From contig NC_015844.1 in the NCBI RefSeq assembly GCF_000973105.1, positions 1,422,501 through 1,486,500 on the forward strand: DNA of 64,000 nucleotides, in the 5' to 3' direction. Positions 33,258-47,516 of this stretch are shown one piece after another (position 1 is the stretch's first letter; every line of letters begins with the position of its first letter). The notes beneath the pieces are model-generated. The model was not told where the DNA came from. It did no database searches and worked only from the letters and a program-made list of their open reading frames with translations. Both the position numbers and the translations under genes were made by a program. Source of the DNA: Zobellia galactanivorans (lineage in GTDB: Bacteria > Bacteroidota > Bacteroidia > Flavobacteriales > Flavobacteriaceae).

Positions 33258-34742
33258 ATGGGTTTATTGATCGCTTACATTATTATCGCAATCTACAGTA
33301 TCGCGCTATTGTTGATATTTTTTTACAGTTTAGCACAACTCAACCTCTTGGTGAACTACTTGGGCTACAAAAGACGCAACCAAATAGCACCAAAGTTCAA
33401 TCTTCTAGATCCGAAAGAAATTCCTTACGTAACCATTCAGCTGCCTGTCTATAACGAAGAATACGTTATGGAGCGCTTATTGGAAAACATTGCAAAAATA
33501 GAATACCCCAAAAGTAAGCTTGAGATCCAAGTGCTTGACGACTCTACCGACGACTCGGTAATCGATACGGCGGCACGGGTAAAAGCCCTACAGGAAACCG
33601 GTCTCGATATTCAGCACATACGGCGTGAAAACCGCCAAGGCTTTAAGGCCGGTGCCTTAAAAGAGGGCTTGGAAATAGCCAAAGGTGAGTTCATTGCCAT
33701 TTTCGATGCCGATTTTATGCCTTCCGCCGACTGGCTGAAAAAAACCGTTATTTACTTTAAAGATCCCGAAATAGGGGTCGTACAGACCCGTTGGGGACAT
33801 ATCAACCGCGAATATTCAACATTGACCCGTATCCAAGCCTTTGCCTTGGATGCCCATTTTACCCTTGAGCAAGTCGGAAGAAACGCAAAAGGTCACTTTA
33901 TCAATTTTAACGGTACTGCCGGTATATGGCGAAAGCAATGTATTCTCGATGCCGGAAACTGGGAAGGCGATACCTTGACCGAAGACCTTGACCTCAGTTA
34001 CCGCGCCCAGCTGAAGAACTGGAAATTCAAATACCTTGAAGACGTTGAGACCCCTGCAGAACTGCCTGTGGTTATAAGTGCCGCCCGTTCACAACAATTC
34101 CGCTGGAACAAGGGAGGGGCCGAAAACTTCAGAAAAACGGTATGGAGCGTTATTACCGCCAAGAACATTTCGTTCAAGACGAAATTTCACGGGGTTATGC
34201 ATTTGCTGAACAGCTCTATGTTCCTTTGTGTATTCTTGGTCTCGCTATTGAGCATTCCCGCCATGTACATCAAGGCCATTTTCCCACAACTGGATATCGT
34301 CTTTACCATGTTGAGCTTCTTTGTTCTGAGTACGATTATACTCTTTGTCTGTTATTGGTTCACCTATAAGAGCATACAGGGTAGCAGCTTTGACAATTTT
34401 GTAGATTATATAAAATTGTTCTTTACCTTCTTTTCGGTGGCCTTAGGCTTTTCCTTACACAACTCAATTGCCGTTCTTGAAGGGCATATGGGCAAGCGTA
34501 GTGAATTTGTACGTACACCGAAATTCAACTTGAACAGTCTTACCGACTCTTGGAAAGGGAACAAGTACCTGACCAAAAAATTGTCGCCGAACATGATTCT
34601 TGAAGCCGTTCTTATGGTCTACTTCCTATTCGGAATGTATAGCGCCATTCCTTTGAACGATTTCGGACTGTTTCCGTTTCACTTTATGCTTTTTGTGGGC
34701 TTTGGATTTGTTTTTACCAAATCTTTAACAGCTCGGGCCTAA
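33258..34742 (+). CDS. Cellulose-synthase-like processive GT2, membrane
   Basis: A 494-residue membrane glycosyltransferase with one N-terminal helix, a cytoplasmic GT-A domain, and about four C-terminal helices (about 310-490). Catalytic marks: QVLDDSTDDS (first Asp), FDADFMP (D-x-D), T-E-D-L-D-L (base) and Q-Q-F-R-W (the Q-x-x-R-W of processive enzymes). The product is not readable; no BcsB-, AlgK- or porin-like partner is beside it, so it is not a full cellulose system. Confidence 0.9.
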   Translation: MGLLIAYIIIAIYSIALLLIFFYSLAQLNLLVNYLGYKRRNQIAPKFNLLDPKEIPYVTIQLPVYNEEYVMERLLENIAKIEYPKSKLEIQVLDDSTDDSVIDTAARVKALQETGLDIQHIRRENRQGFKAGALKEGLEIAKGEFIAIFDADFMPSADWLKKTVIYFKDPEIGVVQTRWGHINREYSTLTRIQAFALDAHFTLEQVGRNAKGHFINFNGTAGIWRKQCILDAGNWEGDTLTEDLDLSYRAQLKNWKFKYLEDVETPAELPVVISAARSQQFRWNKGGAENFRKTVWSVITAKNISFKTKFHGVMHLLNSSMFLCVFLVSLLSIPAMYIKAIFPQLDIVFTMLSFFVLSTIILFVCYWFTYKSIQGSSFDNFVDYIKLFFTFFSVALGFSLHNSIAVLEGHMGKRSEFVRTPKFNLNSLTDSWKGNKYLTKKLSPNMILEAVLMVYFLFGMYSAIPLNDFGLFPFHFMLFVGFGFVFTKSLTARA

Positions 34743-34809
34743 AGAAATAATTCATACCTACAAGTCATTTAATTTTCTTATTTTTTCGGTTGCAAGAACA
34801 CACCGATAA

Positions 34810-36171
34810 ATGCCCAACCAGCCTACTACATATTTAAAATTGCACAAGGTGCCCATTATCTTGGCCCTATTGAGTGCATTTTTATATTACACCTTTGCCT
34901 ATCAACTTGAGCGAACGGACTTCATTAAGCTATTGACGCTCTTTGCCGCTTCCTTTTTTATCTGTTACAAACTCATACAGTTCGAAAAATGGAACTTCAA
35001 GTTTCTGATCATTACAGGTATTCTTTTTCGGCTGATCTTCTTGGCCGCAGAGCCCAACCTCTCTCAAGATTACTATCGATTTATTTGGGACGGGCACTTG
35101 GTCGGCAATTTTATCAATCCCTATTTAGCGGTACCTAACGCCCTTATCTTACAAAGCGACCTGGCCATACCCAATGCCCAGTTGCTTTACGACGGCATGG
35201 GCGACCTAAGCGCCAAACACTTCAGCAACTACCCCCCTTTGAACCAGTTGCTTTTTGCCATTGCGGCGCTCTTGGGCGGTAAGAGCATCATGGGATCCGT
35301 ACTCGTCATGAAAACCATGATCATCTTATCGGATATCGGTATTTTCTATTTTGGAAGAAAGCTCTTGAAGAAGCTGAACCGTTCGCCCCATCTTATTTTT
35401 TGGTACTTCCTGAACCCCTTGGTCATTATCGAACTTACGGGAAATCTGCATTTTGAAGGCGTCATGCTCTTCTTTTTCGTTTGGGCCCTTTACCTGCTGT
35501 CTGAAAAAAAATGGGGATTGGCCGCCATTCCTTACGCCTTATCCATTTGCGTAAAACTGGTGCCCTTGCTTTTCCTTCCCCTTTTCCTAAAACACTTGGG
35601 TCTAAAAAAAAGTACCGGGTTCTATGCCTTGATCGGACTGAGCTGTTTGCTGCTCTTCCTTCCTTTTTATTCCGCCGAGTTTATTGTAAACTATTCAAAG
35701 ACCGTTGGCCTTTGGTTTTCGAATTTTGAATTCAACGCCGGGCTATACAATGCGATCAAACAGATGGCCATCCAATTTGATGGCAAACCTTGGGAACTCA
35801 TAAAGATCTATGGAAAAATAACACCGATCATTACCGTTATAGCGGTGCTCTTGTTTACTTTTTTCAGGGACAACCAAAAAATATCCGTACTCATAACTTC
35901 AATGCTTGCCGTACTCACCTTGTACTATTTTATGTCGGCTACGGTTCACCCATGGTACATTATATTTTTGTTGGTACTGGGCGTCTTTAGTCCCTACAGA
36001 TATGCCCTACTTTGGTCAGCAACGGTCGCTCTCAGTTATTATGCGTATTCTAAGGCAGACTTCAAGGAAAACCTAGGGCTAATTGCCGTTGAATATATTT
36101 CCGTATATGTGTTTTTGATTTATGAAATTCTTAATTCAAAGAGGCAAATACCTTTTTTTCGTAAAAAATAA
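34810..36171 (+). CDS. Polytopic mannosyltransferase-like protein (GT-C)
   Basis: A 453-residue protein with about 10-12 membrane helices. The first large loop carries the GT-C signature L-S-Q-D-Y-Y-R-F-I-W-D-G-H (Asp catalytic candidate), followed by NPYLAVP and SNYPPLNQL, typical of polyprenyl-phosphate mannosyl/glycosyl transferases (GT87/GPI-mannosyl-like). It would use the lipid-linked sugar made by the small GT2. It is the last gene before the arginine operon. Confidence 0.83.
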   Translation: MPNQPTTYLKLHKVPIILALLSAFLYYTFAYQLERTDFIKLLTLFAASFFICYKLIQFEKWNFKFLIITGILFRLIFLAAEPNLSQDYYRFIWDGHLVGNFINPYLAVPNALILQSDLAIPNAQLLYDGMGDLSAKHFSNYPPLNQLLFAIAALLGGKSIMGSVLVMKTMIILSDIGIFYFGRKLLKKLNRSPHLIFWYFLNPLVIIELTGNLHFEGVMLFFFVWALYLLSEKKWGLAAIPYALSICVKLVPLLFLPLFLKHLGLKKSTGFYALIGLSCLLLFLPFYSAEFIVNYSKTVGLWFSNFEFNAGLYNAIKQMAIQFDGKPWELIKIYGKITPIITVIAVLLFTFFRDNQKISVLITSMLAVLTLYYFMSATVHPWYIIFLLVLGVFSPYRYALLWSATVALSYYAYSKADFKENLGLIAVEYISVYVFLIYEILNSKRQIPFFRKK

Positions 36172-36203
36172 GCCGTAAACGTTATACTTTCGACCTAAAC
36201 TTG

Positions 36204-36211
36204 TACATTTG
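36204..36211 (+). promoter_or_regulatory. Putative -7 element (TACATTTG) of the arginine operon
   Basis: Perfect TAnnTTTG 7 bases before the leader-peptide ATG. With the usual spacing, transcription would start within 1-4 bases of that ATG, giving an almost leaderless transcript. The -33 TTG is not obvious. A weaker alternative, TACTTTCG, lies about 20 bases upstream. Confidence 0.55.
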
Positions 36212-36218
36212 ACCTTCC

Positions 36219-36299
36219 ATGAAAGGACAAAGACACATATCTAATACCTTGAGCAACCTTGCTCCCGTTCGCCCGTTTTCTCGTCGCCGTCGCCCGTAA
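36219..36299 (+). CDS. Putative arginine leader peptide
   Basis: A 26-codon reading frame directly before the arginine operon. It has six Arg codons, four in a row (CGT CGC CGT CGC), and ends R-P-F-S-R-R-R-R-P then TAA. The ATG is 7 bases after a perfect TACATTTG. Position, size and the run of the pathway's own end product match amino-acid leader peptides that sense charged tRNA. The frame also contains GAGCAA-CC-TTGCTC (36251-36264), which could form a hairpin in the mRNA. I see no strong terminator downstream. It is too short for routine gene finding; translation is inferred. Confidence 0.65.
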   Translation: MKGQRHISNTLSNLAPVRPFSRRRRP

Positions 36300-36315
36300 G
36301 GGTGTTTCATATTTC

Positions 36316-36393
36316 ATGGGAATAGGTGAGTCCATTTCCGCACAACAACCAACAATTCATTATTTTTTACAGTTTAAATCCTTTTGGCAATGA
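36316..36393 (+). CDS. Possible second small frame coupled to GNAT start
   Basis: A 25-codon frame (MGIGESISAQQ...) whose TGA overlaps the ATG of the GNAT gene (ATGA). Nothing in the peptide is recognised; the first codons sit in a region complementary to the leader-peptide start. It may be chance, or it may couple translation of the GNAT to events in the leader. Confidence 0.2.
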   Translation: MGIGESISAQQPTIHYFLQFKSFWQ

Positions 36394-37010
36394 AATTAAT
36401 TATTGCTAACAAGTCACATGTTAAATACGCCCAGATCATTAGCGATACCATTACGGAATCTGCTAAGGTAAGAGGCACAGGCATAGCCAAGCGTACACCG
36501 GAATATATTCAGAAACGTTTGGAAAACGGCAATGCCGTTATTGCTTTAGACGGAGACAAGTTTGCTGGCTTCTGTTATATAGAAGTATGGGGGCACGAAA
36601 AATTCGTAGCCAACTCTGGCCTTATTGTCCATCCCGATTATAGAAATCAAGGATTGGCAAAAAAAATCAAAAAAAGAATCTTCGAGCTTTCGAGGGAAAA
36701 GTTCCCCGATGCCAAAATTTTCGGCATAACCACGGGACTGGCCGTAATGAAAATGAATTACGAACTCGGATACAAACCGGTTACATTTTCTGAACTGACC
36801 GATGATCCCGAATTCTGGAAAGGCTGCCAGACCTGCAAAAATTTTGACATCCTTACCCGTACCGAACGCAAAATGTGCCTCTGTACCGGCATGCTCTACG
36901 ATGGGGATAAAGAAAAAAAAGTGATCAAAAAGGAAGTGAACAGCAAAGCGTTCAAAAGACTCAAAAGCATTAAAGAATCGCTTTTTCTAAAAAAGAAAAC
37001 GAACCAATAA
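36390..37010 (+). CDS. GNAT N-acyltransferase heading the arginine operon
   Basis: A 206-residue GNAT. Core motifs: SGLIVHPDYRNQGLAKKI (acyl-CoA loop R-N-Q-G-L-A, about 85-90) and GITTGLAVMKMNYELGY. The likely job is first-step N-acylation of glutamate, replacing ArgA/ArgJ, which are absent. The C-terminal third is unusual: Cys146, 149, 163 and 165 form C-x2-C-x13-C-x-C followed by a Lys-rich tail, possibly a metal site. Start: ATG 36390; a TTG at 36384 would add two residues. Confidence 0.85.
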   Translation: MKLIIANKSHVKYAQIISDTITESAKVRGTGIAKRTPEYIQKRLENGNAVIALDGDKFAGFCYIEVWGHEKFVANSGLIVHPDYRNQGLAKKIKKRIFELSREKFPDAKIFGITTGLAVMKMNYELGYKPVTFSELTDDPEFWKGCQTCKNFDILTRTERKMCLCTGMLYDGDKEKKVIKKEVNSKAFKRLKSIKESLFLKKKTNQ

Positions 37011-37064
37011 TCATAATAGGCCAGCAAATCATACGATTATGGCCCAGACAATACATCTTTTAAT

Positions 37065-38255
37065 ATGAAAAAATTAGTTTTAGCATACAGCGGCGGATTA
37101 GACACTTCGTACTGCGCTAAATATCTATCACAGGAAAAAGGTTTTGACGTACACGCGGTAAGCGTAAATACCGGAGGTTTCTCCAAGGAAGAAATAGCCG
37201 AAATCGAAGAAAAGGCCCTTCAATTGGGTGCTAGTTCATATACTTCCATAGACGCCGTTCAAACCTTTTACGACAAGGTGGTAAAATACCTCATCTTTGG
37301 CAATGTTCTAAAGAACAACACCTATCCGCTTTCGGTAAGTGCCGAACGCATCGTACAGGCCATTGAAATTGTAAACTATGCCAAAAAAATAGGCGCGGAA
37401 TATATTGCCCATGGTAGTACGGGTGCAGGAAACGACCAAGTACGTTTTGATATGATCTTTCAGATCATTGCCCCCGAGATTGAGATCATCACCCCGATCA
37501 GGGACGAGAAACTGGCCCGAGAGGAAGAAATTGAATACCTGAAACAAAACGGTGTCGAATATTCTTGGGAAAAGGCAAAATACTCTATCAACAGGGGACT
37601 TTGGGGTACTTCCGTTGGAGGGGAAGAAACCCTGACCTCGGAAAAACCATTGCCCGATTCGGCTTACCCGAGCCAGTTACAGGAAAAGAACCCGACCGAA
37701 GTGAAACTCACCTTCAAAAAGGGCGAGCTTGTGGCCATAGACGGCAAAGAAGACACTCCCGTAAACAATATCATTAAACTCGACGCCCTGGCCTCTAAAT
37801 ACGCCATCGGACGCGACATCCATGTGGGCGATACCATTATCGGGATCAAAGGTCGGGTAGGTTTTGAAGCTCCTGCTTCCTTGATCATTATCAAAGCCCA
37901 CCACCTTCTGGAAAAACACACCTTGACCAAGTGGCAACAGTTCCAAAAAGAACAGCAGGGCAACTTCTACGGCATGCTATTGCATGAAGGCAATTACCTC
38001 GATGCCGTAATGAGAAATATCGAAGCCTTTTTGACCGACACCCAAAAAACGGTTTCGGGCGACGTTTTCGTAGGATTGTACCCCTTCCAGTTCCGATTGA
38101 ACGGTATTTCCTCGAAACACGATTTAATGAACGCCTCCTTCGGAAGCTATGGCGAAATGAACAAAGGCTGGACGGCCGACGAGGCCAAGGGCTTTATCAA
38201 AATACAGTCCAACGCCGGAAAAATATACAACCACGTAAACCCAAGTGATGATTAA
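37065..38255 (+). CDS. argG: Argininosuccinate synthase
   Basis: Joins citrulline and aspartate using ATP. The 396-residue enzyme starts MKKLVLAYSGGLDTSYCAKYL, with the PP-loop S-G-G-L-D-T-S (9-15). AHGSTGAGNDQVRFD and KYSINRGLWGTSVGGEE are family marks. Length is normal. It is the second structural gene of the operon and overlaps argC by 8 bases. Confidence 0.97.
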   Translation: MKKLVLAYSGGLDTSYCAKYLSQEKGFDVHAVSVNTGGFSKEEIAEIEEKALQLGASSYTSIDAVQTFYDKVVKYLIFGNVLKNNTYPLSVSAERIVQAIEIVNYAKKIGAEYIAHGSTGAGNDQVRFDMIFQIIAPEIEIITPIRDEKLAREEEIEYLKQNGVEYSWEKAKYSINRGLWGTSVGGEETLTSEKPLPDSAYPSQLQEKNPTEVKLTFKKGELVAIDGKEDTPVNNIIKLDALASKYAIGRDIHVGDTIIGIKGRVGFEAPASLIIIKAHHLLEKHTLTKWQQFQKEQQGNFYGMLLHEGNYLDAVMRNIEAFLTDTQKTVSGDVFVGLYPFQFRLNGISSKHDLMNASFGSYGEMNKGWTADEAKGFIKIQSNAGKIYNHVNPSDD

Positions 38256-39222
38256 AGCAGGTATTATAGGCGGTTCGGGTTATACAGGTGGGGAATTAAT
38301 ACGAATTCTACTGCACCACCCCGAGGCCGAAATAGATTTTGTTTTCAGCACTACCCGGGCGGGCAAGAAAATTACAACGGCCCATGCCGATCTGTTGGGC
38401 ACGACCGAAATGGAATTCACCGGAAGCATCAATCCCGATGTAGACGTTGTATTCCTATGTCTGGGCCATGGCAATTCCTCTAAGTTCCTACAGGAAAACC
38501 AGTTCTCCGAAAACACCAAGATCATCGACCTCAGCAACGATTTCAGGTTGCAGGCCGATGCCGTTTTTGAAGGCAAAAAATTTGTTTACGGACTCCCCGA
38601 ACTTAGAAAGGAAGAGATAAAGAAGGCGAACTACATTGCCAACCCCGGTTGTTTTGCAACGGCCATTCAATTGGGACTCCTTCCCTTGGCCAAAGCGAAC
38701 AAACTGGGGCATACGGTACATATCAATGCCGTTACCGGTAGTACGGGTGCAGGCGTTAGTCCGTCGGCCACATCGCACTTCAGCTGGAGGAACAACAACG
38801 TTAGCTGGTACAAGCCCTTTACCCACCAACATTTGGGAGAGATCAACGAGAATTTAAAATTCTTGCAAGCCGATTCTGGAGAGCTGTTTTTCCTGCCGAA
38901 CCGCGGTAATTTCGCAAGGGGAATCTTAGCGACGGCCTATACCGAATTCGACGGTAGTCTGGAAGAAGCCATCGACCTCTACAAAGGCTTTTACTCAGAT
39001 GCACTGTTTACACAGGTAGCCGAAGAGCCCATCCATTTAAAACAAATCGTAAACACCAATCAGTGCCACGTTCACTTGCACAAGCATGAAAACACCTTGC
39101 TTATCACCTCGGCCATAGACAACCTATTGAAAGGGGCATCGGGCCAGGCGGTACAGAACATGAACCTGATTTTCGGATTGGGCGAAGGCATTGGCCTTAA
39201 CCTTAAGGCGGGCGTATTTTAG
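38248..39222 (+). CDS. argC: N-acetyl (N-acyl)-gamma-glutamyl-phosphate reductase
   Basis: NADPH reduction of N-acylglutamyl phosphate to the semialdehyde. About 324 residues. Motifs: IIGGSGYTGGELIRILLHHPEAE (nucleotide fold), L-G-H-G-N-S-S, and active-site Cys in N-P-G-C-F-A-T. The C-terminal FLPNRGNFARGILATAY is typical. The start is ATG 38248, overlapping argG; a GTG three bases upstream is less likely. Confidence 0.96.
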   Translation: MIKAGIIGGSGYTGGELIRILLHHPEAEIDFVFSTTRAGKKITTAHADLLGTTEMEFTGSINPDVDVVFLCLGHGNSSKFLQENQFSENTKIIDLSNDFRLQADAVFEGKKFVYGLPELRKEEIKKANYIANPGCFATAIQLGLLPLAKANKLGHTVHINAVTGSTGAGVSPSATSHFSWRNNNVSWYKPFTHQHLGEINENLKFLQADSGELFFLPNRGNFARGILATAYTEFDGSLEEAIDLYKGFYSDALFTQVAEEPIHLKQIVNTNQCHVHLHKHENTLLITSAIDNLLKGASGQAVQNMNLIFGLGEGIGLNLKAGVF

Positions 39223-39293
39223 AACACAAGAAAAAAGCTCCGTGGCGTAAAGTCCACGTCAACCATAAAGCGGAAACAACCAAAATATCAAAA

Positions 39294-40094
39294 ATGAAAA
39301 TAGCCATCATAGGAGCCGGGAATTTAGGCCTTTCCATTGCGAAGGGAATTTTAAATTCGAACGGTGCCACGACCATGTATCTCACGAAGAGAAACACTGC
39401 CGAGATAGAAGAGTATGAAAAGTATGGAAATGTAACCATCACTTCAGACAACCGGGAAGCCGTTAAGAATTCCGACATCCTTATTTTGGCCGTGCAGCCC
39501 AGTCAGCTCGAAAATATTCTGGAAAGCACCAAGGATCTGCTTACCGAAAACCATGTGGTGATCTCTACCATTACCGGTTTCAGCATTGCAAAAATGGAAA
39601 GCATTCTGGGTACCGACCACAATATTATCAGAAGTATGCCCAACACCGCTATTTCGGTAGGGCAATCAATGACCTGTATCTGCAGTAACGAAAAAGGCAA
39701 AAAGAAAATCGATTTGGCCAAGGCCATTTTCAACCGTATGGGGCATTCCATGGAAATACCCGAAACACAAATGCAGGCCGCTACGGTTATTTGCGCAAGC
39801 GGAATTGCCTTTTGGATGCGCTTGATACGGGCCACGACCCAAGGGGCCATCCAACTGGGTTTCGATGCCAAGGAAGCTCAGGAATTGGCCATGCACACCT
39901 GTAACGGCGCTGCCAGCTTGTTAATTGAATCGGGCAGCCACCCGGAAGCGGAAATCGACAAGGTTACCACCCCAAAGGGCTGTACCATTCAAGGTTTGAA
40001 CGAAATGGAACACCAGGGGCTAAGCTCCTCCCTTATCCAAGGGATTGTGGCTTCCTATGAAAAAATCAGTAGAATCAAAGAGAATCAGTTGTAG
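39294..40094 (+). CDS. proC: Pyrroline-5-carboxylate reductase
   Basis: Last step of proline synthesis. 266 residues: MKIAIIGAGNLGLSIAKGIL (NAD(P) loop), ILILAVQPSQL, IIRSMPNTAISVGQSMT and the C-terminal signature KVTTPKGCTIQGLNEME. Length is normal. Placed inside the arginine operon between argC and argD, with proA and proB two and three genes further on. Confidence 0.96.
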   Translation: MKIAIIGAGNLGLSIAKGILNSNGATTMYLTKRNTAEIEEYEKYGNVTITSDNREAVKNSDILILAVQPSQLENILESTKDLLTENHVVISTITGFSIAKMESILGTDHNIIRSMPNTAISVGQSMTCICSNEKGKKKIDLAKAIFNRMGHSMEIPETQMQAATVICASGIAFWMRLIRATTQGAIQLGFDAKEAQELAMHTCNGAASLLIESGSHPEAEIDKVTTPKGCTIQGLNEMEHQGLSSSLIQGIVASYEKISRIKENQL

Positions 40095-40148
40095 AACGTC
40101 TCGCTAAAATTAGGTGTAGAACACAAGCGTCGCACCCTAGTAAAAGTT

Positions 40149-41273
40149 ATGAATTTATTCGATGTTTACCCATTATACGATGTAACCCCAGTCTCGGCAC
40201 AGGGAATAGTAGTAACCGATGACAAGGGAACGGAATACTTAGATTTTTACGGAGGTCACGCCGTAATCTCTATTGGCCACTCCCACCCGCATTACGTAAA
40301 GCGCATCACCGAGCAGTTGAACAAAATAGGGTTTTACAGCAATTCAGTAAAAAATCCCTTGCAGGAGGAATTGGCCACAAAACTCGGACAGCTTTCCAAT
40401 TGTGAAAATTACAATCTGTTTTTGTGCAATTCAGGGGCCGAGGCCAATGAAAACGCCTTAAAACTGGCTTCTTTCCACACCGGAAAATCTAGGGTCATTG
40501 CCTTCACCAATGGGTTTCACGGGCGTACTTCCGCGGCTGTTGCCGCTACGGACAATCCCAAGATAAACGCACCGATCAATTTACAACAGAAGGTTACCTT
40601 TCTCCCCTTTAACGACTTACAGGCCTTTCAGGTGGAAATTGAAAAAGGCGATGTTTGCGCCGTTATCATAGAGACCATACAAGGGGTTGGCGGATTGGAC
40701 GAACCTAGCACCGAGTTTTACCAAGAAGTGGCATCGCTTTGCAAGGCCAATAAAACGGTACTGATCGCAGACGAGGTACAATGTGGTTTCGGCCGAAGCG
40801 GTAAATTCTTTGCTTTTCAACACCACGACATTCAACCCGATATTATTTCGGTTGCCAAAGGTATGGGGAACGGCTTCCCCGTAGGCGGCATTTTGATCCA
40901 CGAAGACATTAAGGCTTCCCACGGAATGCTAGGCACCACTTTTGGGGGGAACCATTTGGCCTGTGCGGCCACATTGGCCGTTTTGGAAGTCTTGGAAGAC
41001 GAAAAGCTCATTGAAAATGCCGCCCATCTGGAAGGCTACTTCAAGGCCCTGGCCGCAGATATCCCACAAATCAAAAGAGTAAAGGGAAAAGGCCTTATGC
41101 TAGGCCTTGAATTCGATTTTGAGGTGGCCGGCCTAAGAAAAAACTTGATCCACAACCAAAAACTATTCACCGGGGGCGCAAAAGACAAACATGTGTTGCG
41201 CGTACTTCCCGCCTTAAATATTACCAAAGCCCATTTAGACACTTTTTTCACCGCCTTAAAAGCAGAATTGTAA
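40149..41273 (+). CDS. argD: Acetylornithine (N-acylornithine) aminotransferase
   Basis: PLP-dependent transamination of the N-acyl glutamate semialdehyde. 374 residues. Features: NSGAEANENALKLA, GFHGRTSAAVAATDN, LIADEVQCGFGRSGKFFAF (PLP Asp), and the PLP Lys in SVAKGMGNGFPVGG. The C-terminal RVLPALNITKAHLD is also typical. It may serve an acetyl- or succinyl-substrate, depending on the carbamoyltransferase. Its stop overlaps the proA start (TAATG). Confidence 0.95.
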   Translation: MNLFDVYPLYDVTPVSAQGIVVTDDKGTEYLDFYGGHAVISIGHSHPHYVKRITEQLNKIGFYSNSVKNPLQEELATKLGQLSNCENYNLFLCNSGAEANENALKLASFHTGKSRVIAFTNGFHGRTSAAVAATDNPKINAPINLQQKVTFLPFNDLQAFQVEIEKGDVCAVIIETIQGVGGLDEPSTEFYQEVASLCKANKTVLIADEVQCGFGRSGKFFAFQHHDIQPDIISVAKGMGNGFPVGGILIHEDIKASHGMLGTTFGGNHLACAATLAVLEVLEDEKLIENAAHLEGYFKALAADIPQIKRVKGKGLMLGLEFDFEVAGLRKNLIHNQKLFTGGAKDKHVLRVLPALNITKAHLDTFFTALKAEL

Positions 41274-42472
41274 TGAGTTTATTATTGGACATAAAACAAC
41301 GCAATGCCGTACTTTCCGACATGGCCCAATTGCTCGAACAAGAACGGACCGCTATCTTGGCGGCCAATAAAATAGATTTGGACAGCTATTCGGGCGATGA
41401 CCTTGCCATGAGGGACCGCCTTAAGGTCGACCAAGAAAAAATAGACGGCATGATCTTGAGCCTGCAGCAACTTGCGGCACAAGAAGATCCCTTGGGTGTC
41501 GAACGCTTTAGTTTCACCCACGATAACGGTATGCACGTAAGCAATAAAACGGCTCCTTTCGGAACCATTCTTATTATTTACGAATCTAGGCCCGATGTTA
41601 CCATCGAAGCGGCCGGAATCGCTTTTAAATCGGGCAACAAAATCCTATTAAAGGGAGGAAAGGAATCGTTGAACAGCAATTTATTCCTTGTCGATTTATG
41701 GCATAAGGCCCTAGAGGCCAACGGAGCCGAAACGGACTGGGTGACTTATTTGCAGTTCAACAGAACCGAAACGCAGGCTTTTCTCGAAAAGCCCAACCAA
41801 AAAATAGACCTTATCGTACCTCGGGGAGGCGAAAGGCTGATCGCCTTCGTAAAAGCGCACGCTACCTGCCCCGTTATCGTAAGTGGACGCGGAAACAACT
41901 TCGTTTACATCGATCATGAGGCCGACCTAGAGATGGCCATAGACATCATCATCAACGCGAAGACAACCAAAATATCGGCCTGCAATGCCTTGGACAAAGT
42001 ACTTGTTTCTTCCGACTTGCCCCGAAAACAGCAATTCCTCCAACACTTGATCCAAGAGTTGCAAAAGAGCAAGGTCGAAATTCTGGCCGACGAGGCCATT
42101 TCAGGTATGGAAGGCACAAAGACCATAGACGACGAACAGATCTGGTACGAGGAATTTTTAGATTATAAGATCGCCATCGGACAAAGCTCCGATATCGAAG
42201 ATGCCATATCTAAAATAAACACTTATGGTGGCGGGCACTCCGCAGCGATCATCACGGCCAACGACGAAACGGCCGAATACTTCATGAACAATGTTGATAC
42301 GGCCGCCGTATACCATAACGCTTCCACCCGTTTTACCGACGGGGGCCAATTTGGCCTAGGTGGCGAACTGGCCATCAGCACCGATAAATTGCACCAGCGA
42401 GGCCCAATCGGACTTCAGCATTTGGTCACCAATAAATGGTATGTAAAAGGAGACGGCCAGACCCGAAGGTAG
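41273..42472 (+). CDS. proA: Gamma-glutamyl phosphate reductase
   Basis: Second step of proline synthesis. 399 residues of the aldehyde-dehydrogenase fold: GTILIIYESRPDVTIEAAGIAFKSGN, IVPRGGERLIAFV, and the active-site Cys in K-I-S-A-C-N-A-L-D. Near the C-terminus YHNASTRFTDGGQFGLGGE is the ProA signature. Normal length. Translationally coupled to argD. Confidence 0.96.
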   Translation: MSLLLDIKQRNAVLSDMAQLLEQERTAILAANKIDLDSYSGDDLAMRDRLKVDQEKIDGMILSLQQLAAQEDPLGVERFSFTHDNGMHVSNKTAPFGTILIIYESRPDVTIEAAGIAFKSGNKILLKGGKESLNSNLFLVDLWHKALEANGAETDWVTYLQFNRTETQAFLEKPNQKIDLIVPRGGERLIAFVKAHATCPVIVSGRGNNFVYIDHEADLEMAIDIIINAKTTKISACNALDKVLVSSDLPRKQQFLQHLIQELQKSKVEILADEAISGMEGTKTIDDEQIWYEEFLDYKIAIGQSSDIEDAISKINTYGGGHSAAIITANDETAEYFMNNVDTAAVYHNASTRFTDGGQFGLGGELAISTDKLHQRGPIGLQHLVTNKWYVKGDGQTRR

Positions 42473-42535
42473 GAATACGGCCAGAGGGCTCGACCAGCAT
42501 TCGCGCCTCGGCATAAACGATGAAATAGAACACCG

Positions 42536-43324
42536 ATGAAAAAACGGATCTTATTAAAAATAGGCTCGAACACCCTAACCAAGGAAACCGATCAGATTTC
42601 TAGGGGAAAGATAGAGGATATAGGGAGGCAGATCGCTTCGCTCAAAGACGACTATGAATTTATCATCGTAAGTTCGGGGGCCATTGCCGCCGCCAAACAG
42701 TTCGTAAAGTTGGAGCACAACGGAGAGGACATTAACGTAAAACAAGCCTTGGCGGCCATTGGCCAGCCCCACCTGATGCGTATGTTTCAGGAAAGTTTTA
42801 GGGAACTCGGCCTATTTGCGGCCCAATGCCTTTTATCGTACTCCGATTTTGAGAATCCGAAATCAAAGGCAAACATCAAGAACACCATTGATATTTTGGC
42901 CAGCAACAATTTTATTCCGATCATTAACGAAAACGATACGGTAGCCGCCGATGAGATCCAATTTGGCGATAACGACAAACTGGCCGCATTGACCGCGGCA
43001 TTGCTCAAGGCCGACCTTTTGTTGATCGCGACCAATACCAACGGTATCTATACCAAAACCTCAATTGAAAACGGGCAACCCGAAACGATTTTTGAAGTTT
43101 TGGGCATCGATAGCCTGCAACAAGAGATCAGCTCGCATAAGTCGTCACACGGTACGGGCGGCATGCAATCTAAAGTAGAGGCCGCAACCATTGCCCAAAA
43201 GGCCGGCATTGAAACCTGGATCGTCAACGGCCTTAACGACAATTTTATAAGCGATGCCCTTGGGGGATCGGGAAAGCATACGAAGATCAAAACCAAGGAC
43301 GGCCACTTTTTAGAAGGCCACTGA
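42536..43324 (+). CDS. proB: Glutamate 5-kinase (no PUA domain)
   Basis: First step of proline synthesis. 262 residues consisting only of the amino-acid kinase domain: KRILLKIGSNTLT, IIVSSGAIAAAKQF, ENDTVAADEIQFGDNDKLAAL and SHGTGGMQSKVEAATIAQKAGI. The PUA domain present in E. coli ProB is missing, which is common in this phylum. It follows proA by 63 bases. Confidence 0.95.
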   Translation: MKKRILLKIGSNTLTKETDQISRGKIEDIGRQIASLKDDYEFIIVSSGAIAAAKQFVKLEHNGEDINVKQALAAIGQPHLMRMFQESFRELGLFAAQCLLSYSDFENPKSKANIKNTIDILASNNFIPIINENDTVAADEIQFGDNDKLAALTAALLKADLLLIATNTNGIYTKTSIENGQPETIFEVLGIDSLQQEISSHKSSHGTGGMQSKVEAATIAQKAGIETWIVNGLNDNFISDALGGSGKHTKIKTKDGHFLEGH

Positions 43325-43372
43325 AGCAAATCCATAGAAAAAAATTAGAACAGCCAGAGAAACAGAACACAA

Positions 43373-44308
43373 ATGAAACATTACCTTTCCGTACAAGACA
43401 TAGATTCATTGGACCATTGGGTGGAAGAAGCCCGAGACCTAAAAGAAGATCCCAAAAAGCACAAGAACCTAGGTTCCGACAAAACGATTGGGCTATTGTT
43501 CTTCAACAACAGTCTCCGTACCCGCCTAAGCACCCAAAAAGCCGCTATGAACCTTGGTATGGAAGTTATTGTCATGAACTTTGGAAGCGAAGGATGGGCT
43601 CTGGAATACGCCGATGGTACCGTTATGGACCAAGGCACTTCCGAACATATCAAGGAGGCCGCGCAAGTGGTTTCGCAGTATTGTGACATTATCGCCATTA
43701 GGGCCTTCGCCGGACTTAAGGACAAAGAAGAGGATGAGGCCGAGAAAGTCCTAAACGGATTTAAAAAATACGCTTCCGTACCTATCGTGAATATGGAAAG
43801 TTCGGTAGGCCATCCTTTACAAGCCTTGGCCGATGCCATTACCCTGGCCGAACAGAATACCAAGGCACGTCCTAAAGTGGTGCTTTCATGGGCCCCGCAT
43901 CCGAAGGCGCTTCCACATGCCGTAGCCAATTCATTTGTAGAAATGATGCATTTACAGGATGCCGACTTTGTGATCACCCATCCCGAAGGCTATGAACTCA
44001 ATCCCGAGATCACCAAGGGGGCGACCATCGAATACGACCAGAAAAAGGCTTGCGAAAATGCCGATTTCATCTATGTAAAAAACTGGAGCAGCTATAGCGA
44101 CTACGGAAAGGTGCTGAACCAAGATAAAAATTGGACGATGACCCCTGAAAAAGTGGGTAAGGCCAAATTTATGCACTGTCTACCGGTACGAAGAAACGTT
44201 GTGGTGGCCGATGCCGTTTTAGACGGCGACCGATCACTGGTCATCGAACAGGCCAATAACCGAACCTATGCCGCCCAGATCGTACTGAAAAAAATCTTGG
44301 AACAATAA
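43373..44308 (+). CDS. argF': N-acyl-L-ornithine carbamoyltransferase
   Basis: Transfers the carbamoyl group to an N-acylated ornithine, the hallmark of the Bacteroidota arginine route. 311 residues. Carbamoyl-phosphate loop F-F-N-N-S-L-R-T-R-L-S-T (43-54), WAPHPKALPHAVANSF and HCLPVRRNVVVAD. Established work on Xanthomonas AOTCase (Glu92) and Bacteroides fragilis SOTCase (Pro90) shows that one residue sets acyl specificity; by my alignment this protein has Ser90 in D-Q-G-T-S-E-H. See the findings. Confidence 0.95.
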   Translation: MKHYLSVQDIDSLDHWVEEARDLKEDPKKHKNLGSDKTIGLLFFNNSLRTRLSTQKAAMNLGMEVIVMNFGSEGWALEYADGTVMDQGTSEHIKEAAQVVSQYCDIIAIRAFAGLKDKEEDEAEKVLNGFKKYASVPIVNMESSVGHPLQALADAITLAEQNTKARPKVVLSWAPHPKALPHAVANSFVEMMHLQDADFVITHPEGYELNPEITKGATIEYDQKKACENADFIYVKNWSSYSDYGKVLNQDKNWTMTPEKVGKAKFMHCLPVRRNVVVADAVLDGDRSLVIEQANNRTYAAQIVLKKILEQ

Positions 44309-44312
44309 GCCC

Positions 44313-45086
44313 ATGAAATTATCCATTGTCAAAATAGGCGGTAACGTCATTGAAAACAAAGAAGAACTTTCTAAGTTCCTAAAGGCGTTTTCCGAATTGG
44401 ACGGCCCGAAAATCTTGGTCCATGGCGGCGGAAAACTCGCCACCCAACTGGGCAAAAGGCTGGGCATAGAATCGAAACTCATCGGCGGACGCCGCATTAC
44501 CGATGCCCAAAGCCTCGAACTCATTACCATGGTCTATGGCGGACTCGTAAACAAGAACATCGTGGCCGAACTACAATCCCTTAACTGTAATGCCATTGGA
44601 CTCAGTGGCGCCGACGGCAATACCATTCAAGCCCACAAACGACCCGTAAAGGATATCGATTACGGCTTTGCAGGCGATGTTGACGGCGTGAGCGCCCCAA
44701 CGGTCTCCAAACTCTTGGAAGCGGGACTTACCCCTGTTTTCTGTGCCATGACGCATGATGGAAAGGGACAATTACTGAACACCAACGCAGATACCATAGC
44801 CTCTGAACTATCCATTGGCATGAGCGAAAACTACGAAACCACCCTGTATTATTGTTTTGAAAAAAAGGGGGTTTTAATGGACGTAAACGATGACGCATCG
44901 GTGGTAAAACACATCGATAGCCAATCGTACCAAAGTTTACTTGAGCAGAACGTCATCGCTGACGGCATGCTTCCCAAAATGGAAAATTGCTTTCACGCCC
45001 TAAAACGAAACGTACACCAGGTACGTATTGGCGATATCGGCATGCTCGACCCTAAATCTACTTTATTCACGACCCTCACCCTATAA
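44313..45086 (+). CDS. argB: Acetylglutamate (N-acylglutamate) kinase
   Basis: Phosphorylates the N-acylglutamate. 257 residues: MKLSIVKIGGNVIENKEEL, LVHGGGKLATQLGKRLGI, GLSGADGNTIQAHKR, and near the C-terminus GGML-type segment A-D-G-M-L-P-K-M-E. Normal length; the N-terminal helix of arginine-inhibited hexameric enzymes is absent, so strong allosteric inhibition by arginine is not expected, which makes gene-level control more relevant (inference). Confidence 0.95.
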   Translation: MKLSIVKIGGNVIENKEELSKFLKAFSELDGPKILVHGGGKLATQLGKRLGIESKLIGGRRITDAQSLELITMVYGGLVNKNIVAELQSLNCNAIGLSGADGNTIQAHKRPVKDIDYGFAGDVDGVSAPTVSKLLEAGLTPVFCAMTHDGKGQLLNTNADTIASELSIGMSENYETTLYYCFEKKGVLMDVNDDASVVKHIDSQSYQSLLEQNVIADGMLPKMENCFHALKRNVHQVRIGDIGMLDPKSTLFTTLTL

Positions 45087-45088
45087 AA

Positions 45089-46159
45089 ATGGAACAAGCA
45101 GCATTAACGCAAAAAGCGATAGAATTACTAAAGGAACTGATTTCGATACAATCGTTTTCATCGGAGGAAGACAAAACTGCCGACGCCATTGAAAACTGGT
45201 TCAAAGCTTTTGACATTCCCTTTAAACGACACCTTAATAACGTGTATGCGGTGAACAAGCACTTCGACGAAAGCAAGCCCACGCTTCTTCTCAATTCGCA
45301 CCACGATACGGTGAAACCGAATTCGGCCTATACGCGAGACCCCTTCCTTCCGCATATCGAGGATGGCAAACTTTATGGATTGGGCAGTAACGATGCAGGT
45401 GGCGCCTTGGTTTCCCTTATTGCTACCTTTACACACTACTACGCCGAAGAAAACCTCAACCACAACATTTTGATGGTAGCTTCTATGGAAGAAGAAAGTT
45501 CCGGGCCCAATAGCCTTAGGGGACTTTTACCACACCTACCCAAAATTGACGTAGCCATAGTGGGCGAACCTACGTTATTGGATTTGGCCATAGCCGAAAA
45601 GGGATTGGTTGTTTTTGATGCAGTCATCAAAGGTACACCATCGCATGCCGCACATCCGAACGACAACAACTCCATTTACAACACCATAGAAGTTTTGGAG
45701 TGGTTCAAAAATTATAAGTTCGACAGGGTTTCCGACGCACTCGGACCCGTAAAATTAACGGTCACACAAATTAACGGAGGTTCCCAACACAATGTCGTTC
45801 CTGCGCAGGTAGACTTGGTTATAGATGTAAGGGTGAACGATAAATACACGAATAGTGAAATTGCCGAAATCTTAAAAAAGGAAGCACCTTGCGAACTAAA
45901 GGAGCGCTCTTTAAAACTGAACTCTTCGGCCATTGATATAAACCACCCTTTAGTGCAGTCGGGAATCGCATTGGGAAGAAAGACCTACGGCTCGCCTACA
46001 CTCTCCGATCAAGCGGCCCTGAGCTGTCAATCATTGAAATTGGGCCCTGGCGATAGTACCCGTTCGCATTCTGCCGATGAATATATTTACGTTCATGAAA
46101 TTGAAGAGGGAATTGATCTGTACATTAACTTATTAAAAGGATTCTTAAAACAGAATTAA
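45089..46159 (+). CDS. argE: N-acyl-citrulline/ornithine deacylase, M20 family
   Basis: 356-residue zinc peptidase of family M20. Metal sites: LLLNSHHDTVKPN (His-Asp), GLGSNDAGGALVS (bridging Asp), M-E-E-E-S-S-G (catalytic Glu and ligand), and a C-terminal His in STRSHSADEYIYV. In this pathway it removes the acyl group after carbamoylation, giving citrulline for argG. It follows argB by 2 bases and is followed by a long hairpin. Confidence 0.92.
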   Translation: MEQAALTQKAIELLKELISIQSFSSEEDKTADAIENWFKAFDIPFKRHLNNVYAVNKHFDESKPTLLLNSHHDTVKPNSAYTRDPFLPHIEDGKLYGLGSNDAGGALVSLIATFTHYYAEENLNHNILMVASMEEESSGPNSLRGLLPHLPKIDVAIVGEPTLLDLAIAEKGLVVFDAVIKGTPSHAAHPNDNNSIYNTIEVLEWFKNYKFDRVSDALGPVKLTVTQINGGSQHNVVPAQVDLVIDVRVNDKYTNSEIAEILKKEAPCELKERSLKLNSSAIDINHPLVQSGIALGRKTYGSPTLSDQAALSCQSLKLGPGDSTRSHSADEYIYVHEIEEGIDLYINLLKGFLKQN

Positions 46160-46214
46160 GTACTGAGTACAAAGTATTAAGTTTCACTTAATCTTAGACT
46201 TTGTACTTCGTACT
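46159..46214 (+). repeat. Long imperfect hairpin between argE and argH
   Basis: A stem beginning at the argE stop codon: AGTACTGAGTACAAAGT pairs with ACTTTGTACTTCGTACT with two mismatches, and an inner AAGT/ACTT extension with a small loop. There is no T-run, so it is not a classic terminator. Repeated TACT/AGTAC units suggest a mobile small repeat; it may protect or cut the transcript. Confidence 0.7.
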
Positions 46215-46235
46215 GATTACTCAATACTTATAAAA

Positions 46236-47516
46236 ATGAAACTCTGGGACAAAGGCTTTAGCACCGACAAAAAAATAGACCATTTCACCGTGGGAAACGA
46301 CCGCGAACTCGATCTGCACTTGGCGAAGTACGACGTGATCGCTTCGCAGGCCCACGCCAAAATGCTGGGTAAAATAGGATTGTTGACCGATGAGGAAACC
46401 TCGGACTTGGTCAAAGAATTGGATGCCATTGCCGAAACCATTGAAAAGGGTGAATTCACCATCGAGGATTCGTTTGAGGACATGCACTCCAAAATAGAGT
46501 ACGTACTCACCGAAAAACTAGGGGACACCGGTAAAAAAATACATACGGCCCGATCGCGAAACGACCAGGTTTTGGTGGCCATGCACCTCTACCTGAAGAA
46601 CGAACTGACCGAGATAAAATCGGGAACCAAGGAACTGTTTGATTTGTTATTGGAACTTGCCGAGAAATACAAAGACGTATTACTTCCTGGGTATACCCAC
46701 TTACAAATTGCCATGCCATCTTCTTTTGGCCTATGGTTATCGGCCTATGCGGAGAGCCTTATCGACGATTTGTATTTTGTCGATGCCGCCTATAAAGTGG
46801 CCGACCAAAACCCCTTGGGAAGCGCTGCGGGTTACGGAAGTTCCTTCCCCATAGACCGTAGTTTTACGACCAAGGAAATGGGTTTTGAGACCCTGAAATA
46901 CAACGTAGTCGCCGCTCAAATGGGCCGGGGCAAGGTGGAAAAAGCTACAGCCTTCGGGATGGCCAATATTGCCGCTACCCTATCAAAACTGGCCATGGAC
47001 ATCTGCCTGTACATGAGCCAGAATTTCAACTTTTTGTCCTTTCCCGACGAACTGACTACCGGTAGTAGCATTATGCCGCACAAAAAGAACCCCGATGTTT
47101 TTGAATTGGTTCGAGGCAAGTGCAACAAGCTACAGAGCATTCCCAACCAGTTGACCTTGGTCATCAACAACCTGCCCAGTGGCTACCACAGGGACCTGCA
47201 ATTGGTAAAGGAAATCATCGTGCCCGCCATTCAGGACATGAAGGCCTGTTTGGAAATATTGACTTTCAGCCTTAAGGAAATGAAAGTGAACAAAGGCATA
47301 CTGGAAGACCCCAAATACGACTATCTCTTTAGTGTCGATACACTGAACGAACTCGTACAGAGCGGCATGCCCTTTAGGGACGCCTATAAAAAAATGGGGA
47401 TGGAGATCCAGGAAGGCACCTTTACCCCTAAACGCGACATTCATCATACCCATGAAGGTAGTTTAGGAAATTTGTGTTTGGAGGAAATTAAAGGGAAGAT
47501 GGACAAGATTTCTTAA
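46236..47516 (+). CDS. argH: Argininosuccinate lyase
   Basis: Last step: argininosuccinate to arginine and fumarate. 426 residues: MKLWDKGFSTDKKIDHFTVG, IHTARSRNDQVLVAMHLYLK, PGYTHLQIAMPSSFGLW and the fumarase/ASL signature G-S-S-I-M-P-H-K-K-N-P-D with the catalytic Ser. Somewhat shorter than E. coli ArgH (457) but complete. It closes the arginine operon. Confidence 0.96.
   Translation: MKLWDKGFSTDKKIDHFTVGNDRELDLHLAKYDVIASQAHAKMLGKIGLLTDEETSDLVKELDAIAETIEKGEFTIEDSFEDMHSKIEYVLTEKLGDTGKKIHTARSRNDQVLVAMHLYLKNELTEIKSGTKELFDLLLELAEKYKDVLLPGYTHLQIAMPSSFGLWLSAYAESLIDDLYFVDAAYKVADQNPLGSAAGYGSSFPIDRSFTTKEMGFETLKYNVVAAQMGRGKVEKATAFGMANIAATLSKLAMDICLYMSQNFNFLSFPDELTTGSSIMPHKKNPDVFELVRGKCNKLQSIPNQLTLVINNLPSGYHRDLQLVKEIIVPAIQDMKACLEILTFSLKEMKVNKGILEDPKYDYLFSVDTLNELVQSGMPFRDAYKKMGMEIQEGTFTPKRDIHHTHEGSLGNLCLEEIKGKMDKIS

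Follow-up and report, generated by a model that had tools for sequence, protein, structure and literature searches.

How is arginine synthesis controlled in a bacterial family in whose sampled genomes no arginine repressor was found? The question is raised by a 64-kb stretch of the Zobellia galactanivorans genome (the window: positions 1422501 to 1486500 of a single contig of 5,521,712 bases; coordinates below are window positions, with all features on the forward strand), in which a short frame stands just before an arginine/proline operon. This frame (36219 to 36299, MKGQRHISNTLSNLAPVRPFSRRRRP) starts with ATG and has 26 codons. Six of its 26 residues are Arg, four of them consecutive, and it ends in four CGY codons, CCG, and the stop TAA; 90 nt separate it from the ATG at 36390 of the first operon gene. 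The sequence thus bears out the Arg-rich frame reported in an earlier note on this DNA, which had recognized in it the layout of an amino-acid-sensing leader peptide. That recognition is supported by the conservation of the frame, its synonymously changing Arg tract, a promoter box upstream, and the failure to find ArgR.

Within the window, this is the only ATG frame of 10 to 60 codons with at least four Arg in its last six codons. Forty runs of first-order Markov sequence gave an expectation of 0.6 comparable frames per 64 kb (maximum 3), so the frame by itself is not beyond chance. It is the comparison with relatives that we find convincing, as the position and conservation of the frame, not the frame alone, exceed chance. 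In Zobellia uliginosa (L257), the leader peptide is identical to that of the window.

The operon order, by NCBIfam, is GNAT-argG-argC-proC-argD-proA-proB-argF'-argB-argE-like, followed by an argH-like open reading frame (ORF). The first gene (36390 to 37010) matched no NCBIfam model and was named GNAT-like by eye. Scores above the cut-off were obtained for argG (37065 to 38255, TIGR00032), argC (38245 to 39222, TIGR01850, scanned from 38248), proC (39294 to 40094, TIGR00112), proA (41273 to 42472, NF001221), proB (42536 to 43324, TIGR01027), and argB (44313 to 45086, TIGR00761), and also for argF', an acyl-ornithine carbamoyltransferase gene (43373 to 44308, NF003384, 290.7 bits versus a cut-off of 288). 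The argD-type aminotransferase (40149 to 41273, TIGR00707, 369 bits) fell under its cut-off of 410, as did the ArgE/DapE-family deacylase (45089 to 46159) under that of TIGR01910. The argH-like gene (46236 to 47516) is an ORF named by inspection.

A search for ArgR with PF02863 (E 1e-5), a model other than that of the DNA-binding domain, gave no match in the Z. galactanivorans genome (G000). Among 247 genomes from across the phylum, PF02863 matched 91, none of them Flavobacteriaceae. GNAT was found in 103 of the 247, and only 2 of these 103 had ArgR as well. In these two genomes (G613 and G620), argR directly adjoins GNAT.

The earlier note had proposed searching many Flavobacteriaceae for Arg-rich frames ahead of this gene, and that search, now run, was positive. 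GNAT was matched in 199 of 299 Flavobacteriaceae genomes, and the leader counts given here refer to the best-scoring 150 loci, so weaker GNAT homologues are absent from them. Under a rule set after the sequences had been viewed (at least two Arg in the last six codons, stop 75 to 130 nt upstream of GNAT), an Arg-rich open frame was present at 130 of the 150 loci, 99 with and 31 without an ATG in frame, leaving 20 loci without one. The commonest endings among the 130 were RRRP (66) and PRRP (33). Two layouts could be distinguished. Type 1, that of the window, has a single frame. In type 2, a distal frame lies ~300 nt upstream (58 loci; for example, MKNLKNKIRCTIPGLPVRSRRRF), and usually a second Arg frame (47 of the 58, 27 of these with ATG) is present at H2, a hairpin described below. 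Where this second frame has no ATG (20 of 47), it may start at GTG, CTG, or another codon. At type 2 loci (L052 to L150), the arginine operon is thus preceded by two successive Arg-rich frames. Nine of the 150 loci had neither layout.

The codons of these frames have changed in a manner expected of translated sequence at their ends. Type 1 frames of 26 codons (15 loci) and of 27 codons (23 loci) were compared: in their last six codons, single-nucleotide codon changes were synonymous in 438 cases and non-synonymous in 84, i.e., 84% compared with ~32% expected. The remaining codons gave 799 synonymous changes and 1282 non-synonymous ones (38% versus 23% expected). For the last nine codons of the distal frames, counted in four length classes, the numbers were 346 and 456 (43%), against an expectation of 27% calculated for the 23-codon class. 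All of these are pairwise counts and not independent events. Codon choice is also biased, with CGC or CGT making up 359 of 367 Arg codons at the H2 tract versus 43 of 110 in twelve window genes. Because H2 imposes a GC-rich sequence there, part of the bias and synonymy at the frame end may be structural. The 58 distal frames, which do not overlap H2, are likewise Arg-rich at their ends and use CGC or CGT in 207 of 236 Arg codons, a count that includes one spurious frame (L003).

From sequence patterns, the leader frame is predicted to lie downstream of a conserved sigma-A promoter box. In Flavobacterium psychrophilum, this box occupies -12 to -5 (PMC9723704, section 15). The box position in that paper, the window sequence, and the pattern in relatives together place a sigma-A -7 box, TACATTTG (TAnnTTTG), at 36204 to 36211, and transcription is predicted to start at 36216, 3 nt before the leader ATG. 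As the box stands only 7 nt ahead of the start codon, the leader frame would itself be nearly leaderless. The pattern TAC[AT]TTT[GA] occurs in 38 of 40 type 1 loci. A TAnnTTT[G/A] box lies 3 to 11 nt before an in-frame ATG in 48 type 1-like frames, at exactly 7 nt in 34 of them. The distal frames were selected for having a box no more than 24 nt away, but with the distance itself left free; 44 of them have a spacing of 4 nt and 10 one of 5 nt (54 of 58 at 4 to 5 nt). Given the F. psychrophilum box position, the distal frames would start at or near +1 and the window frame at about +4. By either rule, 106 of the 150 loci have a promoter box, and 44 have neither form. The strict TAnnTTTG was found in the last 60 nt before GNAT at only 1 of 150 loci.

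The leader RNA is predicted to form three hairpins. H1 (GAGCA/TGCTC, 36251 to 36264) lies in the coding frame; it came out on top in a scan of all 4-bp stems across 14 distinct frames of 26 codons. In the 27-codon group (23 frames), it covaried more than any other of the 14 top-ranked stems, although near-invariant stems ranked ahead of it. An outer stem, P0 (36225 to 36270, pairing 36225-36228 with ~36267-36270), may enclose H1. This stem is tentative: among the 14 top-ranked stems of the 14 distinct 26-codon frames, it (register 7-10/53-56) was the most covarying after the H1 registers, but it is imperfect in the window, where its register was taken from single-sequence folds, and the stem scan did not detect it in the 27-codon group. 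The H1 region is only slightly more stable than shuffled sequence (mean z of -0.97; 8 of 40 loci at 5% or better), and the stability of the full window leader is not unusual (z of -0.74).

H2 (CGCCC-GTAA-GGGTG, 36291 to 36304) spans the last Arg, Pro, and stop codons and is near-invariant, with slight covariation (CG to AU, 4 cells). H3 (GGGAAT-A-GG-TGAGT-CC-ATTTCC, 36317 to 36340) has a bulged A and carries an invariant tip, GGUGNGUCC, over a covarying stem whose outer part appears as GGAAAT/ATTTCC, GGAGTT/AACTCC, GAACT/AGTTC, and other variants. The bulge is mostly A (77) or UA (40) and is followed by a GG/CC pair and the tip TGNGT. In the 140 loci with the exact tip GGTGNGTCC, from which L060 and L122 are left out along with loci of other tip sequence, N is A in 106, T in 25, and C in 9. 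Double-sided changes in H2 and H3 numbered 31 cells versus 10.2 after shuffling in 24 sequences. In 94 distinct sequences, which represent the 96 of 100 loci matched by model R1 in an alignment fitted to that model, there were 100 cells versus 26.1; 9 of 14 pairs had double changes, and all seven outer pairs of H3 change on both sides. Such an invariant tip over a changing stem suggests a binding partner. A Shine-Dalgarno-like role for the AGGUG in the tip was considered and set aside, the anti-Shine-Dalgarno sequence being sequestered by Bacteroidia ribosomes (PMC9976891).

In the consensus fold of 38 type 1 leaders, the H3 strands had no other pairing at a probability of 0.15 or more, and no antiterminator appeared. 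An 8-nt match in the window between the frame start (CCATGAAA) and the H3 flank (TTTCATGG) was rejected, as it is lost by eye in several relatives. Between H3 and the first operon gene lies a G-poor spacer of near-constant length (36341 to 36389). In the 140 loci, G makes up 6.3% of this spacer compared with 15.7% upstream of 53 window ORFs, and C is not enriched (16% versus 18%). Rho-dependent leaders of the orf34/tnaC type would be expected to expose an unstructured stretch rich in C and poor in G once the ribosome departs; the coding part of the arginine leader looks C-rich. The distance from GGTG to the GNAT ATG has a median of 64 nt, with the middle half at 62 to 67 nt. It is possible that the G-poverty simply suits translation initiation.

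The H2-H3 element is tied to a single place in the genome. Model R1, built on H2 and H3, matches the window at 36287 to 36340 with 70.8 bits; the next match in the same genome, at 19.9 bits, lies over an other-strand gene for a predicted 694-residue protein. A genome-wide family of the element was rejected, with one convincing match in the genome; of six further weak matches, two were inspected only briefly. Within the family, 240 of 397 genomes have an R1 match, one each. In 299 genomes, element and GNAT gene occurred together in 177, GNAT only in 22, the element only in 1, and neither in 99. The 22 of 199 GNAT-bearing family genomes without an R1 match are to be read with the scan filters in mind, which are stricter and lose weak matches; genus g127, probably Flavobacterium, is among the R1-negative groups (0 of 14). 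In the one genome with the element only (G084, locus L346), the element precedes a different frame, acetyltransferase-like by eye, and then an argG-like frame, GNAT having been replaced. As G084 keeps the element before the argG-like frame without GNAT, the element seems to be tied to the arginine operon.

A search by DNA pattern found at least 118 stretches. Among the matches listed, GNAT followed within 260 nt in 117 of 118, and in the remaining one the sequence ends 74 nt after the element; all 118 had at least two Arg in the last five codons before the stop, an outcome that the pattern partly forces. Eighty pattern matches come from what we take to be Flavobacteriaceae genera and Flavobacteriaceae or Bacteroidetes bins, two of them named Flavobacterium (L270 and L285). 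Among the 247 phylum genomes, R1 gave 14 matches, 13 of them in Flavobacteriaceae. The match in family f34, a hairpin upstream of a gene resembling rimP by eye, is taken to be a false positive.

Forty further leaders were fetched from genus g127 and other families. In all five leaders fetched from family f23 (L187, L188, and L190 to L192), which belongs to another class, GNAT is closely preceded by a frame that ends in PRRR (for example, MQLSLAHRIDFIPVRPIPRRR); two of these frames start at TTG, and CGG codons are used where sequences are given. These frames suggest independent or ancient arginine leaders. All five are Arg-rich without the exact H3 tip. Elsewhere, Arg-run frames were seen at some loci and nothing clear at others. 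In g127, a different conserved stretch (pattern CTCCCGARGTACGGA) is found ~320 to 230 nt before GNAT in 8 of 10 first-copy GNAT loci (L173 to L180, not L181 or L182). Translated, it would give a frame with Arg residues (...SRTNRP..TSPEVRML) that uses CGG and AGA codons, and it holds a small hairpin.

If such a leader worked like the textbook attenuators, a terminator would be expected before the operon. The earlier note had seen no classic terminator here, and this holds across relatives. A lax terminator scan did flag H2 plus TTTCATATTT in the window (2 sites in the region versus 0.8 expected). A stem followed by a T-rich stretch was present in 24 of 140 arginine leaders, in each case before H3, versus 14 of 15 his leaders under the same rule. 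The 24 of 140 exceeds plain shuffles (1 to 4 of 140 in eight rounds) because the conserved hairpin H2 adjoins the T-rich spacer. When the letters of this spacer are permuted, 26.5 loci (17 to 36) are expected to have a T-run directly behind H2, and it was found at only 13 of 135; therefore, selection does not keep a terminator there. The his leader of the same genome (L215, G000:C1 near 5222680) reads MKNRNTHHHFYTGSQAR from an inner ATG and is followed by an intrinsic terminator. It shows that this lineage uses leader peptides.

We consider it probable, at about 0.78, that the frame is the leader peptide of a ribosome-based arginine sensor acting without an intrinsic terminator. Comparison of genomes provides the conserved frame, codon bias, hairpins, promoter box, operon linkage, and lack of ArgR on which this reading is built; from these we infer leader translation, stalling, the direction of regulation, and the output step. 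Transcription would start ~3 nt before the ATG, and a ribosome would load near the 5' end and translate the 26-codon peptide. When arginyl-tRNA for CGY codons is scarce, the ribosome would stall on the terminal CGY run. Judging by the size of the ribosome footprint, stalling there would mask H2 together with the 3' strand of H1. When arginyl-tRNA is ample, the ribosome would finish and leave at TAA, freeing H2 and the H1 3' strand, so that H2, H1, and H3 can form and expression of the operon is lowered. H3 would serve as a fixed structural or binding element. With no intrinsic terminator conserved, the operon would most likely be turned down either through Rho termination in the freed coding part and the G-poor spacer or through less translation of its first gene. 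We favor the view that stalling prevents a non-intrinsic stop, given the lack of a conserved terminator and the coverage of H2 and H1 by a ribosome on the Arg run; Rho seems somewhat likelier than translational control.

Among the alternatives, the one that survives best has no premature termination at all: H2, H3, and the stalled ribosome would set translation of the first gene, with the rest of the operon following by coupling. We regard this as possible, though it is not where we would place our confidence. It is consistent with the missing terminator and the nearly constant H3-to-ATG spacing, and translation-acting leader peptides are known, such as rbfL of Staphylococcus aureus (PMC13009471). 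The type 1 consensus fold also predicts a hairpin (GCAAU/AUUGC, 36387 to 36406 in the window) over the GNAT start codon; however, this hairpin is seen in the type 1 consensus and overlaps protein-coding constraint. In addition, translational control would have to govern an operon of 10 to 11 genes through its first gene.

It is unlikely that regulation lies with the H2-H3 RNA itself, through a bound protein, RNA polymerase, or small molecule, leaving the Arg frame a minor or secondary input. The tip, invariant in the loci searched for it over a covarying stem, and the one convincing copy per genome linked to the arginine operon would fit such a role. The synonymous change and CGY bias of the frame, seen also in distal frames outside H2, argue against it, as do the f23 leaders, which keep the Arg-rich frame without the exact tip. 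Classic attenuation with H2 as the terminator, as in the his leader, is very improbable: the weak likeness of H2 and its T-rich tail to a terminator in the window, and the excess of such stretches over shuffles, are outweighed by the depletion of T-runs after H2, by the origin of that excess in the neighboring spacer, and by the far higher terminator frequency in his leaders. Finally, although 0.6 such frames are expected by chance per 64 kb, conservation, synonymous bias, and operon linkage make a chance frame in an untranslated leader scarcely credible.

The favored reading, an arginine sensor that works through its ribosome, can be set beside known systems. The his, trp, and leu leaders of enterobacteria are amino-acid leader-peptide attenuators, and the his leader of Z. 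galactanivorans belongs beside them. The arginine leader resembles these in having a short frame, a run of codons for the regulated amino acid, a predicted position between promoter and operon, and hairpins around the run. It differs in its lack of a conserved intrinsic terminator, the stop codon inside H2, the invariant-tip H3, and arginine as the signal. The leader orf34 of Salmonella speF also has consecutive Arg codons, and its translation opposes Rho; as described, it differs in its target, ornithine decarboxylase, in its enterobacterial host, and in taking RNase G and ornithine as inputs (PMC6386406). Likewise, S. aureus rbfL is a leader peptide that senses arginine limitation via ribosome pausing, but the pausing covers a ribosome binding site and represses a biofilm regulator, a non-biosynthetic target, and the codons are AGA and rare AGG (PMC13009471).

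Closer to the family, Bacteroid-trp RNA precedes trp genes. It is listed as a candidate cis-regulatory RNA in Bacteroidetes (RF01692; PMC2864571, Table 1). It is distinct from the arginine leader, at which no Rfam covariance model matched in a scan of 34000 to 47000 (two unrelated matches were below threshold). The GUCCY-hairpin (PMC2864571) was considered as a candidate and compared by name only. For F. psychrophilum, the regions before amino-acid operons are reported to give strong clues that leader peptides attenuate them, with hisG and pheA elements named, and the portion of that paper drawn on here names no arginine leader (PMC9723704). These 5' elements appear to differ from that of the window, as g127, the probable Flavobacterium, gave no H2-H3 matches. 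Short frames reminiscent of leader peptides have been described in Bacteroides thetaiotaomicron (PMC7366714), and the portion of PMC8632094 drawn on here contains neither Bacteroid- nor Flavobacter-. Literature searches of open-licence PMC papers turned up no arginine leader in Bacteroidota in the titles and abstract openings of the papers listed.

Tentatively, H2-H3 might be a so far undescribed structured RNA and the defining feature of a class of arginine attenuators that lack a terminator. In this class, a ribosome stalled on the CGY run would determine whether the operon is stopped by Rho, by RNA polymerase, or by a dedicated protein that acts via the invariant H3 tip. Such leaders, with lineage-specific RNA, may have taken the place of ArgR across Bacteroidota with the GNAT-type arginine operon, and type 2 lineages may use two arginine leader peptides in series.

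Taken together, the leader suggests, in a form that can be tested, how arginine synthesis may be controlled in a family in whose sampled genomes no arginine repressor was found. It is also a clean study system, being single copy and nearly leaderless, with a sister his leader that has a normal terminator in the same genome. As such, it could serve to study how a leader peptide works without an intrinsic terminator in bacteria whose initiation does not depend on Shine-Dalgarno sequences.
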